From the NCBI GenBank assembly GCA_902793335.1, contig CADBCZ010000021.1, positions 23,723 to 87,722 of the forward strand: DNA of 64,000 nucleotides, read 5' to 3'. The DNA comes from an uncultured Lachnospiraceae bacterium. GTDB taxonomy: Bacteria; Bacillota; Clostridia; Lachnospirales; Lachnospiraceae. The notes under the pieces were generated by a model. The model was not told the DNA's origin. It did no database searches and saw only the letters and a list, made by a program, of their open reading frames with translations. Below, one piece after another: positions 47,985-51,383 of this stretch. The position numbers and the translations under genes are program-made. The number at the start of each line of letters is the position of its first letter. Position 1 is the first letter of the stretch.

Positions 47985-48125
47985 TTATCCTTTCGTAAAA
48001 GCAACACAGCGTTCTTCCAATTCTTCTATTTTATCATATACTTTATCCAAGCGAAAGTTCAGATCTGCCCTTTTTCGTTCATAATGCCTGTCTTCAAAGT
48101 CAAGAGTAGCCCTGATATAATCCAT
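47985..48125 (-). pseudogene. Remnant of a serine recombinase C-terminal coiled coil
   Basis: A 46-codon frame starting ATG at 48123-48125: MDYIRATLDFEDRHYERKRA, DLNFRLDKVYDKIEELEERC, VAFTKG. It closely parallels the coiled-coil segment of the intact serine recombinase at 57192-58868 (KHYDKKYEDMQVRLDKLYDE, IEEIE). So this is probably a leftover of another large serine recombinase, though a GGAG-like site precedes the ATG and it could be expressed as a small protein. It overlaps, in another frame, the read-through tail of the upstream gene. Confidence 0.5.
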
Positions 48126-48661
48126 GGGCCTCTCCTTCTACTCTCTCCGTTCCACTTCGGTCGGCGCAGAGCATCTACACTCCGTTTCGGTCCGCGCTGA
48201 ACGGATGGTCTACGTTCCACTTCGGTCGTTGCTGAACCGAGATCCCCCGGATCTCGAGCAACCCCCGGACATCCAGCGCCGTCCCCCGGACGATTTGCGC
48301 CCTCCGGATCTTTCCAATATCCACCCTTATGGAAGTTTTCATTTCCAAGAGGTTTCGCTGTCAGACGAAACATAACACAGCCATCAGGGCAGACAACCGT
48401 TTTCGAGTACTTGCTGTCTCCGCCAAGGTTTTCAAGATCTCCGCCGCTTCGAACAGCCTCCATCAACGGATATAGCATCATCATGGTTTTGGAACAGAGT
48501 CCGTATCCATCTTTGTTTACCGGGCATCCGTATGTGCAGGTGTATGTATCGCCTATCTCTTCTCCGTTACGGCAGTACCGTTCTGTGTGATCTCCCCTAA
48601 GAAAGCCTATCACTTCAACTGTAAATTCATACTCTTCATCATACCACTTCTTCATCGTCAT
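48059..48661 (-). CDS. TIGR04076-like protein with a repeat-encoded C-terminal extension
   Basis: 200 residues. Residues 1 to about 117 match the small conserved family I recall as TIGR04076: KKWYDEEYEFTVEVIGFLRG, GDTYTCTYGCPVNKDGYGLC, KYSKTVVCPDGCVMFRLTAK, with several cysteines; such proteins normally end soon after PLGNENFHKGG. Here translation goes on for about 80 residues through the palindromic repeat at 48147-48302 (NRPGDGAGCPGVARDPGDLG...RRPKWNG) and then antisense-frame recombinase debris. The extension is G/P/R-rich and unlike the domain, so it is an acquired tail. GGAGAG precedes the ATG. Confidence 0.75.
   Translation of the reverse strand: MTMKKWYDEEYEFTVEVIGFLRGDHTERYCRNGEEIGDTYTCTYGCPVNKDGYGLCSKTMMMLYPLMEAVRSGGDLENLGGDSKYSKTVVCPDGCVMFRLTAKPLGNENFHKGGYWKDPEGANRPGDGAGCPGVARDPGDLGSATTEVERRPSVQRGPKRSVDALRRPKWNGESRRRGPWIISGLLLTLKTGIMNEKGQI
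48147..48302. repeat. Palindromic repeat copy 1, apparently triple nested
   Basis: Three left modules in a row, each ending in TTCGGTC (CCGTTCCACTTCGGTCGGCG; CTACACTCCGTTTCGGTCCG; CTACGTTCCACTTCGGTCGT), are followed by three right modules in reverse order (GAGCAAC; CATCCAGCGCC; CGATTTGCGCC). They pair as nested stems: GTTGCT/AGCAAC with a GAGATCC/GGATCTC tip, GCGCT/AGCGC with GGATG/CATCC, and GGCGCA/TGCGCC outermost. So one element seems inserted in the loop of another, twice. No stop codon in the frame of the overlapping gene. Confidence 0.75.
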
Positions 48662-48669
48662 CTCTCCTG

Positions 48670-48776
48670 TCTACACTCCGTTCCGGTCCGCGCTAAGCGG
48701 ATGGTCTACGTTCCACTTCGGTCGTTGCTGAACCGAGATCCCCCGGATCTCGAGCAACCCCCGGACATCCAGCGCC
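48670..48776. repeat. Palindromic repeat copy 2, double nested
   Basis: Almost identical over 107 bases to the inner two layers of copy 1: TCTACACTCCGTTCCGGTCC, CGCTAAGCGGATGG, then the inner unit with GAGATCC/GGATCTC tip, and CATCCAGCGCC. Encodes the last 34 residues of the GyrI-like gene (ALDVRGLLEIRGISVQQRPK...), including its stop, and ends eight bases before the next start codon. Confidence 0.85.
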
Positions 48777-49399
48777 CTGATCGGATGCCTGATCACTGTT
48801 TTTAACTTCTCCGGCTGAACTTTTCTCGCATCAGAGAGATAAATCTCATGGTGCAATCTCTTGTCCGTGATATCAAGAACATAACCCTGTTCTTCCATAT
48901 ATCTGTGCATCGCATCTACCGTAGCCGGCTCATCGTCGTATGATCCGATATGCATGCACTGCACACACAACCCTTCATCATAAGTAAAGAACTCCACCTT
49001 TGAGAAATCCTGTTTCTTCTTAACCGTAGCTTCCCTGACAGCCCACTCAAAATCATCTTTCGTTACAAAGTCTGGCAGGCGGATGACGGATATCCACTTG
49101 AAATCTTCTTTATGAGCATAGTCGATACCGATTACTCCATTCTGCCACCACAAACCTTCCAATGGTGGAACTACATAATCAAAATATCCGTCAATCTGAT
49201 GATCACCTTTTTTACTCATCTTGATCGTAAATGCGATTCCATACAAAAGACCTATAGCCTGTTTATATTCGCCATCTTCATCATTTGGATTCCCACTGCC
49301 CCTAACCGCGATATAATTCATTTTCGGAACAGTAACGATAGATGGTGTGCCCTTCGGCATATAGAATTCTTTGTATTCCTTCTTGTAATCAAACGCCAT
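48671..49399 (-). CDS. GyrI-like small-molecule-binding protein with repeat-encoded tail
   Basis: 242 residues from the ATG at 49399 (GGAG nine bases upstream; an in-frame GTG/ATG at 49414 overlaps that site). Residues 1-208 match stand-alone GyrI-like proteins: FDYKKEYKEFYMPKGTPSIV, NYIAVRGSGNPNDEDGEYKQ, GLWWQNGVIGID, CMHIGSYDDEPATVDAMHRY. These bind small hydrophobic or cationic compounds. The natural end is near KLKTVIRHPIR; the last about 34 residues are encoded by repeat copy 2. Repeat copy 3 lies directly upstream and supplies the GTGGAG that acts as its ribosome site. Confidence 0.82.
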   Translation of the reverse strand: MAFDYKKEYKEFYMPKGTPSIVTVPKMNYIAVRGSGNPNDEDGEYKQAIGLLYGIAFTIKMSKKGDHQIDGYFDYVVPPLEGLWWQNGVIGIDYAHKEDFKWISVIRLPDFVTKDDFEWAVREATVKKKQDFSKVEFFTYDEGLCVQCMHIGSYDDEPATVDAMHRYMEEQGYVLDITDKRLHHEIYLSDARKVQPEKLKTVIRHPIRALDVRGLLEIRGISVQQRPKWNVDHPLSADRNGV

Positions 49400-49407
49400 A
49401 CCCTTTA

Positions 49408-49463
49408 TCTCCACTTCGTTTCGGTCGGTGCTAAACGATCGTCCACCGGACGATCAGCACCCC
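49408..49463. repeat. Palindromic repeat copy 3, single
   Basis: CCACTTCGTTTCGGTC-GGTGCTAA-ACGATCGTCC-ACC-GGACGATC-AGCACC: a clean hairpin GATCGTCC/GGACGATC nested on GGTGCT/AGCACC with the family's left module. Carries the stop codon of the cysteine hydrolase-VOC gene (GGGTGCTGA) on one side and the ribosome site of the GyrI-like gene on the other. Confidence 0.85.
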
Positions 49464-50425
49464 TCCGTCAAGTCTTTTGTTTCATAAGACTTATTCCAGG
49501 AACCGATCTCTATCAAGTTGCCTTCCGGATCAGCGATATAGCAGGTTCTCTGTCCCCAAGGTTCAAGTTCCGGTTCCAGCACGGATGTCGCTCCATTTTC
49601 CACGGCCTTCTTATATGCTTCATCCACCTCTTCAAAAGTATCGACATACAGCGCTATTTCAAAATGACCGTTCAGTCCTTTTATATACTCATACCGCCGG
49701 CTTGTCATCTTCTCAAAATCCTTCCTGCCGTAAAGCAGAAAAAGTGTTCCATCCTTTACAAGATAAACATTAGAAGTATTCTCTTCTTCCTTGATCTCAA
49801 ATCCGAGAACATCCCTGTAAAAGCGGATCATCTTCGCCATATCTTCAACAAGTATCCCAAAACCATCTAATCTCATGCTCTGTCTACACTTCGTTCCGGC
49901 CCGTGCCAAACGATCGTCCACCGGACAATCAGCGCCCTCCATATAATCCTCAAGTTCTTTGACCTCACAGCCCTTTTTCGCATAGTATGCGTACATTTCA
50001 TCCATCTTTTTCAGATCATAGCTTGTAACACAATCGGATATCACGTGAACGCTATATCCTGCCTTTGTCATATTGAAGCATGTGGACTTTACGCAACCTG
50101 TGGCATCCGCACCGGCAATAAAGAACTCGTTAATTCCATTCTTTTCAATGAACTCTGTAAATTCCTCGCTCGTAAGCGCATTTGCCTTCGTCTTCACAAA
50201 GATATTATCGGATACCACCTTCATTTCAGGAACCAGCTCAGCCCCTTTTGTGTCCGGCTTAAAGGTTCTGGTTCCCGGCGACAGATTATTATGCTTGATA
50301 TAGATGATCTGCATATTCTCTGTCACAGCCCAGTCGATAGCCTGATTGATACGATCAATGATCTTTTTGTAGTTCTTAGTAATGTCATTTTGAATGTCAA
50401 TTATCATCAGCGCTTTGTTTCCCAT
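49454..50425 (-). CDS. Fusion: cysteine hydrolase (isochorismatase-like) + VOC/glyoxalase domain
   Basis: 323 residues from the ATG at 50425 (AGGAGG ten bases upstream). Residues 1 to about 160 are an isochorismatase-family cysteine hydrolase: KALMIIDIQND, VKTKANALTSEEF, FIAGADATGCVKSTCFNMTK (catalytic Cys) and VISDCVTSYD. Residues about 182-320 are a vicinal-oxygen-chelate domain: LDGFGILVEDMAKMIRFYRD, FEIALYVDTFEEVDEAYKK and YIADPEGNLIEIGSW. The linker (about 163-181, ADCPVDDRLARAGTKCRQ) is repeat copy 4 read in frame. The second domain starts at its own Met (MRLDGFG), so these were two genes joined by loss of a stop inside the repeat. A separate translation start for the VOC part is possible but no ribosome site is seen. 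Confidence 0.82.
   Translation of the reverse strand: MGNKALMIIDIQNDITKNYKKIIDRINQAIDWAVTENMQIIYIKHNNLSPGTRTFKPDTKGAELVPEMKVVSDNIFVKTKANALTSEEFTEFIEKNGINEFFIAGADATGCVKSTCFNMTKAGYSVHVISDCVTSYDLKKMDEMYAYYAKKGCEVKELEDYMEGADCPVDDRLARAGTKCRQSMRLDGFGILVEDMAKMIRFYRDVLGFEIKEEENTSNVYLVKDGTLFLLYGRKDFEKMTSRRYEYIKGLNGHFEIALYVDTFEEVDEAYKKAVENGATSVLEPELEPWGQRTCYIADPEGNLIEIGSWNKSYETKDLTEGC
49883..49937. repeat. Palindromic repeat copy 4, inside a coding region
   Basis: TCTACACTTCGTTCCGGCCC-GTGCCAA-ACGATCGTCC-ACC-GGACAATC-AGCGCCC: same layout as copy 3 with a few changes. It is read in a stop-free frame as the linker between the cysteine hydrolase and the VOC domain. Confidence 0.85.
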
Positions 50426-51383
50426 GGTTCTTTTCCCTCCTTTCAAAAGCTCCGCATGGCTCCGCTTCGCTCACTGCTGTTGCATATTTTTCCGCCATAT
50501 CACAGGCGATCTCATACAGCTTATCCCTGACAGACTCCGGATCGATCACAGTCACCTTATCCCTGCATGAAAGCATCCATGATATCAGGCCTTCATCATC
50601 CGAATATTCATGTTCAAAGAGAAGCGATCCATCCGGTTGCTCTTCAAATGAACCCACGCCGTACTCTTCAACCAATTGCCACTTCATGGACGGATCAAAA
50701 ACTGCTTTGACTCTTCCTTTTGCAGGAAAGACCTTTTCATTTGATAGCTCCGGCAAAGGAATCTCGGATCTTCTGTCAAACACCTCACCATGAACGATAC
50801 TGTCCATCCTGTTCAGCTTGAACAGCCGGAAGTCTTCCCTTAACAGGCAGAACCCATATGCATACCAGCTAGACCATTTAAAGATCAGATAATAAGGCTC
50901 GATCTCCCTTTTCGTCTCGCCTCCCGGCGAATAATAATCGAATCGGATCCTCCTACGCAGTTCAATGGCGTCTTGGATGAGACCTATCTTCGGGGGAAGC
51001 GTATCCTGGTACCATGAAGACAGATCAATTAGGATGGAATCCCTGCCATTTACAAATTCCGAAGAACCTGCCTGGATCTTTTCCATCAACTGACCATAGT
51101 ATCTGCTCCCACTTACACTGTCCAAACTTCGGAGGCCCGCAAGGATCATCTGCATATCCCGTGATGTCAAAAGCGTCCTATCCATCCGGTATCCGTTCAT
51201 AATACTTATACCGCCTCCGGCTCCCTGAGAAGTCTGGATCGGTATTCCCGCTTTACAAAGAACTTCGATATCCCTGTTTATCGTCCTCATGGACACTTCA
51301 AAATGATCTGCGAGCTCCGGAGCCGTTGTCATCTCCTTCTGCAGTAGTATGGATAATATTCCGATAAGTCTGTCTATCTTCAT
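50397..51383 (-). CDS. HTH/WYL-domain transcriptional regulator (YafY-like)
   Basis: 328 residues. N-terminal DeoR-type helix-turn-helix KIDRLIGILSILLQKEMTTA...FEVSMRTINRDIEVL, linker GAGGGISIMNGYRMD, a WYL domain (YYLIFKWSSWYAYGFCLLRE) and WCX C-terminus. The natural end should be near EIACDMAEKY; the last about 25 residues come from a short repeat-like sequence at 50446-50480 (GCTCCGCATGGCTCCGCTTC...). That stretch also provides the ribosome site of the cysteine hydrolase gene, which overlaps this one by 29 bases. Probably senses a ligand and controls the downstream small-enzyme genes or itself. Confidence 0.88.
   Translation of the reverse strand: MKIDRLIGILSILLQKEMTTAPELADHFEVSMRTINRDIEVLCKAGIPIQTSQGAGGGISIMNGYRMDRTLLTSRDMQMILAGLRSLDSVSGSRYYGQLMEKIQAGSSEFVNGRDSILIDLSSWYQDTLPPKIGLIQDAIELRRRIRFDYYSPGGETKREIEPYYLIFKWSSWYAYGFCLLREDFRLFKLNRMDSIVHGEVFDRRSEIPLPELSNEKVFPAKGRVKAVFDPSMKWQLVEEYGVGSFEEQPDGSLLFEHEYSDDEGLISWMLSCRDKVTVIDPESVRDKLYEIACDMAEKYATAVSEAEPCGAFERREKNHGKQSADDN

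Follow-up and report, generated by a model that had tools for sequence, protein, structure and literature searches.

We describe a family of palindromic DNA elements of about 52-54 nt in Lachnospiraceae and consider them, with a probability of about 0.7, to be non-autonomous mobile palindromes served by a putative enzyme acting in trans. The copies are dispersed through the host genome and the family, with a conserved build and unrelated flanks; relatives contain precise empty sites; and the elements are repeatedly nested in one another. The elements were recognised in a window (the whole 64,000-nt stretch of DNA that was analysed) from an uncultured Lachnospiraceae bacterium, for which a preliminary description had proposed a mobile palindrome family, a proposal that is borne out by these observations. 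A literature search, in which few subscription papers were covered, yielded no earlier description of the element family among the matches listed.

The four copies are present where they had been reported, at 48144-49936, and adjoin boundaries of minus-strand genes (Table 1). Copies 3 and 4 are single, as described. Copies 1 and 2 had both been called nested, and both are; copy 2 has two levels, with the inner 54-nt element in the 5' arm of the outer element's hairpin, and copy 1 has three, one level deeper than had been claimed. Without its outer element, copy 1 is a 107-nt block that is 97% identical to the complete copy 2, and the flanks of the two are unrelated (the outer element in copy 1, the end of the GyrI-like gene in copy 2). 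Judging from this sequence identity, the nested unit seems to have been copied or moved as one whole; gene conversion could also explain it.

All four copies overlap coding frames, as had been noted. Copy 4 is translated in frame and joins PF00857 and PF00903 in one 330-aa frame. Copies 1 and 2 lengthen gene ends, and copy 2 supplies the tail and the stop of the GyrI-like frame, replacing the gene's own end. Copy 3 lies immediately ahead of the GyrI-like start and provides the glyoxalase frame with its stop. The claim that the repeats are stop-free is therefore incorrect, since copies 3 and 2 contain the stop codons of the glyoxalase and the GyrI-like frame, respectively. The isochorismatase-glyoxalase open frame is a predicted fusion, at the level of the frame only. 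The 200-aa frame had no Pfam match; it may belong to the family named TIGR04076.

Table 1. Element copies in the window and the genes that they touch.
Feature	Position	Strand	Remark
Copy 1, outer element, left module and 5' hairpin half	48144..48173	+	aligned with other copies
Copy 1, middle element with the inner one, 107-nt two-level unit	48174..48280	+	
Copy 1, innermost single element	48209..48262	+	profile match E 5e-17 (G000:C21:71931-71984)
Copy 1, outer element, 3' hairpin half	48281..48301	+	
Copy 2, two-level nest	48670..48776	+	site empty in L130
Copy 2, inner element, 54 nt	48705..48758	+	match E 5e-17
Copy 3, single element	49408..49461	+	match E 3e-19
Copy 4, single element	49883..49936	+	match E 1e-15
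200-aa frame, C-terminal part from copy 1	48059..48661	-	
GyrI-like gene (PF06445)	48671..49414	-	tail after HPIR from copy 2
Isochorismatase (PF00857) and glyoxalase (PF00903), single open frame via copy 4	49454..50446	-	

The element is a double-hairpin element, composed of a left module that contains a mini-hairpin (consensus TCT-N-C-RY-TYC-RY-T-N-CGGTC) and a main hairpin whose 6-bp stem is followed by a bulge of 4 nt in the 5' arm and then by an 8-bp stem capped with a 3-nt loop; in longer variants, the left module carries a full hairpin. Using an alignment of 127 matches (124 distinct rows), we found that 97.1% of the main-hairpin cells were paired and that 356 cells had double changes, compared to 97.9 in shuffled controls; the alignment was fitted to the model and is thus biased toward the structure, the effect being nevertheless large. 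When the partner was slid by 1 to 3 columns as a control, pairing fell to 31-48%. The two RY dinucleotides of the mini-hairpin, which occur in all four combinations, were reverse-complementary in 121 of 122 distinct copies (shuffled mean 56.5, maximum 74). The family-wide covariation puts the structure beyond chance. Folded individually as DNA, copy 3 was better than all 200 shuffles (z -5.0), copy 2 was equalled by one of 200 (z -3.0) and a 150-nt part of copy 1 by four of 200 (z -2.5), and the fold of copy 4 by itself was unremarkable (z -1.2; 30 of 200 shuffles as good). An Rfam scan of eight element loci returned tRNAs and sub-threshold matches, with nothing at the elements.

Scanning the genome of origin and its relatives for further copies, as the preliminary description had advised, was productive. 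Of the seven matches with E < 1e-11 in the own genome, four belong to the window; the other three, two beside tRNA-Arg and one beside tRNA-Leu (tRNA kinds assigned by eye), are on two further contigs. In the genus, nine of 12 other genomes match (E up to 0.1), with 3 to 13 matches each. In a family-wide set of 150 genomes, drawn evenly with one per genus, own genome included, and searched with filters stricter than those of the genus search, at least 73 match at E up to 0.001, with up to 29 matches per genome. The limit to the family is not strict, because three of eight genomes from other families of the order gave one match each (E 1e-5 to 0.1). A pattern scan of GTDB found at least 120 stretches with the element; the match titles are Lachnospiraceae genera, Eubacterium, or loosely named Clostridia or bacteria, and the hosts among the matches listed include Butyrivibrio, Roseburia, Mediterraneibacter, Coprococcus comes, Oribacterium and Eubacterium ramulus. 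Five stretches with the element were found in a viral contig collection, one partial match only in a phage collection, and none in a plasmid collection; carriage by phages or plasmids was rejected, since the element is nearly absent from these collections.

Copy number within a genome partly reflects larger composite repeats in which the element is a passenger. This accounts for the identical copies in genomes G045 and G072; in G045, all 12 loci of identical copies examined are composite repeats carrying the element. The composites in G045 (L247-L258) and G072 (L227-L232) consist of several stacked palindromes with the element as the inner layer.

The search for empty sites, also suggested at the outset, yielded seven filled/empty pairs. 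In each, the element precisely substitutes one or two bases (T, T, TC, T, C, AA and AC), with no target-site duplication, and is followed by CC in six of the seven pairs and by CG in the pair at L194. Only these pairs define the ends of the element, because in the large site set the ends were fixed by the search pattern. A contig of an Oribacterium metagenome-assembled genome (L130), 94.8% identical to the window locus over 691 ungapped nt, lacks copy 2; its empty site is CTCTCCT-T-CCTGAT, the single T of which is replaced by copy 2 in the window, and its GyrI-like gene ends in an ordinary stop. So do all 11 other GyrI-like orthologues found in the genus, in the loci of which no element was found (their neighbourhoods differ). 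In Lachnospiraceae XBB2008 (L188), the isochorismatase and glyoxalase genes are adjacent and have ordinary stops, without copy 3 or 4; its glyoxalase gene is split by an element insertion of its own, with a net gain of 53 nt that causes a frameshift and truncation, and the corresponding empty site is the window glyoxalase, CTCTG-T-CCCCAAGG. At L194, the filled and the empty place lie on one contig and are 96% identical over 163 columns, the filled place being an element inside the left module of another.

The remaining pairs come from genome G183, in which a tRNA cluster of the order Lys - gene (HTH-like by eye) - Glu - Glu - His - Tyr - Ser occurs twice. The Lys, both Glu, His and Ser genes are split by elements in one cluster (L148) and only the first Glu gene in the other (L320), with four insertions having exact empty counterparts (Lys, Glu-CTC, His, Ser), in a comparison in which the second cluster could be a true duplication or derive from a mixed strain. 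Three of the four insertions are in T-loops and one is in an anticodon arm; the insertion in tRNA-His, in its T-loop, is reversed. No insertion was found in the HTH-like gene or the spacers of the cluster. In 32 stretches of G183 that were examined, two or three intact copies of every split tRNA kind are present, including copies beyond the second cluster, and in a relative (L120, 82% over the locus) tRNA-Lys is intact as well. Insertion or splicing at the RNA level is disfavoured by the reversed insertion in tRNA-His, and RNA-level removal need not be assumed, since G183 has intact versions of all the split tRNAs.

These boundaries bear on the alternative that no dedicated enzyme is involved and that the elements spread by hairpin-driven template switching in replication or by copying within larger repeats. 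The variable base at the left junction and the losses of one or two bases would fit such a process, as would the tandem growth at L168 and the passenger copies in composites. However, four tRNA genes of a single cluster each contain a full-length element, precisely placed and with nothing extra, and precise full-length insertions are also found in two protein genes; we consider this alternative unlikely, although it is the strongest of those weighed.

That the element is of the REP/BIME type and is moved by a Y1 tyrosine transposase of the REP-associated kind (RAYT) is quite improbable. In its favour, the elements are short palindromes in several to many copies, and the unpaired GNAG at the bottom-strand end (GTAG in 49 of 128 copies, GGAG in 54 of 128) recalls the GTAG tag that many REPs bear at one end; in the available text of one report, the tag of a REP is an unpaired GTAG or CGTC at one end (PMC3733652). 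On the other side, an association with a REP-type Y1 transposase, which the preliminary description had suggested looking for, was not found: among the 150 genomes, 45 have both Y1 and element, 28 the element only, 43 Y1 only and 34 neither (p = 0.51), and the best-scoring 30 Y1 loci contain no element. Nor was any PF01797 match found in the element-rich genomes G087 (27 matches), G110 (19) and G022 (15). The Y1 transposase was accordingly rejected as the mobiliser, its presence being independent of the elements. According to the available text of one paper, REPs with REPINs and RAYTs (a subject also of PMC3116915) resemble the element in being short bacterial palindromes thought to be mobile in trans (PMC3733652), and some lie inside genes and have a tag at one end (PMC3733652); the element differs from them, as far as the available text of that source describes REPs, in its lack of Y1 association, its double-hairpin build and its self-nesting (PMC3733652). 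The words Clostridi- and Firmicutes are absent from the main text of that paper (PMC3733652). It is not shown that the element is a REP, the end tag being ambiguous.

Among other enzymes, IS110 gained no support as the mobiliser from its presence among the 150 genomes and is not required, since no IS110 match was found in G047, which has 23 element matches; the best IS110 matches in G022, G072 and G110 are weak (E 3e-6 to 9e-4). By eye, no transposase was recognised among the ORF families recurring in at least four of 120 scanned element loci; the recurrent families listed resemble transporters and sensory or other proteins.

Recurrent targets of the element are tRNA T-arms, its own kind and other palindromes. 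In site sets drawn by pattern matches and top scores rather than randomly, nesting in another family member was found by an automatic rule (the member excised) at eight of 137 distinct sites in five loci, a strict T-loop pattern was found at 13 of 135 sites, and a loose one at 27 of 138, at least two of which (L188, L194) are not tRNA. The eight nested sites are L051, L067, two in L153, two in the tandem array of L168 and two in the window; further nesting was seen by eye at L099, L174 and L194. The elements at L168 form a tandem series that repeats every 51 nt, and the junction of each is close to the base of the hairpin before it. Both nesting and T-arm counts are, by estimate, far above uniform expectation, as both kinds of target make up a tiny share of a 3-Mb genome. 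Other palindromes are also entered: in G072, the element lies inside a TCCTAAGG hairpin, itself within a GATTCTTCGC...TCGCTCAGAATGAC repeat, and in G045 it lies within a longer repeat. Conversely, an unrelated double hairpin occupies the loop of an element at L081 (2855-2957), which suggests further families with the same nesting habit. Near tRNA 3' tails, one arrangement recurs in several genera: a terminator-like hairpin is followed by a palindrome derived from the T-arm and by a second tRNA tail, in whose T-loop the element is often found (contigs C45 and C17 of the own genome, that is L008 and L009, and L013, L018, L058, L065 and L085).

The preliminary description had named the tip of the element's own hairpin as the target. 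Nesting in its own kind holds, and the definition is too narrow, because the elements have also entered tRNA T-loops, an anticodon arm, gene ends and unrelated palindromes. General hairpin targeting is only modestly supported, the tests having given mixed results. The flanks of 101 non-T-arm sites fold more strongly than 2500 random places (-7.7 vs -4.6 kcal/mol, p 3e-19), a difference that is partly due to base composition, and pairing between left and right flanks is slightly better than in permuted controls (z -3.1, 89 sites). No such pairing was seen at 24 T-arm sites (z +0.9), and over all 125 sites the share of junctions falling in a predicted hairpin loop barely exceeded that of controls (0.34 vs 0.32).

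That the elements are passive remains of integrative elements using tRNA 3' ends as attachment sites is very improbable. Many copies do lie in tRNA-tail repeats downstream of tRNA genes; however, real tRNAs are split without tail duplication, also in the anticodon arm and in reversed orientation, and the existence of protein-gene and self-nested sites refutes the idea as a general account. Local tandem duplication alone, compatible with window copies within 1.8 kb and named beforehand as the refuting alternative, is refuted with a negligible remaining probability, because copies with unrelated flanks are dispersed elsewhere in the genome and across the family.

If the elements are mobile palindromes moved in trans, the enzyme would recognise a folded single strand of the element, as suggested by the maintenance of both hairpins by compensatory change and by the resemblance of the bottom-strand mini-hairpin, RY-GRA-RY, to d(GCGAAGC), a very stable DNA hairpin. 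The enzyme would join the element before CC, at sites prone to form hairpins; insertions would survive where harm is small, i.e., in spare tRNA copies, tRNA tails, gene ends and other repeats; and direct copies may then recombine and delete the intervening gene. We propose only tentatively, and at less than even odds, that this would represent a distinct class of bacterial mobile DNA, in which a non-Y1 recombinase inserts a folded double-hairpin strand before CC near hairpin loops, with the result that members of several unrelated palindrome families are stacked in one another and in tRNA loops.

Double-hairpin elements of mitochondria were reportedly first described in fungi. The hairpin elements of fungal and sponge mitochondria resemble the present element, as far as the available text of one paper goes, in being small, probably mobile and built as a hairpin or double hairpin, and in being tolerated in non-critical parts of genes (PMC2800124); they differ in being mitochondrial, whereas the present family is bacterial and has defined ends (PMC2800124). 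In the organelles of Volvox carteri, short palindromic selfish repeats of tens of nt have spread, often inserted in one another, building larger repeats (PMC2670323); in contrast to the present element, these belong to organelle genomes and have another sequence and loop, and targeting of tRNA loops is not seen in the available portion of that account (PMC2670323). By analogy, the element would work like the nested organelle palindromes and the mitochondrial hairpin elements, but in a bacterium. Rickettsia palindromic elements, to which the preliminary description had likened the repeats, are also palindromes that enter genes and extend proteins (PMC3767692); however, in the part of the source available they are 100-150 bp long and some are said to keep frames open (PMC3767692), whereas the element is 52-54 nt long, has stops in two window frames and caused one +53 frameshift at L188. 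The likeness in keeping frames open thus fails, as that insertion, the one inside a gene that is well resolved, truncates the gene. The host is not Rickettsia or Wolbachia either, the window locus being 94.8% identical to an Oribacterium contig, and the element lacks the defining features of the Rickettsia elements.

In L130, no glyoxalase gene is present between the isochorismatase and GyrI-like genes, and the single element there combines the left flank of copy 3 with the right flank of copy 4. The simplest reading of this arrangement is that the glyoxalase gene was probably lost via recombination between copies 3 and 4, because L188 has both genes adjacent without these elements. Lachnospiraceae are common in the mammalian gut. 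In their genomes, the element changes gene ends, opens frames between neighbours and splits spare tRNAs, and it apparently favours the loss of genes. The filled/empty pairs provide exact boundaries that are usable in an assay, and the old question of how short nested palindromes move in organelles and bacteria without an evident transposase is now testable.
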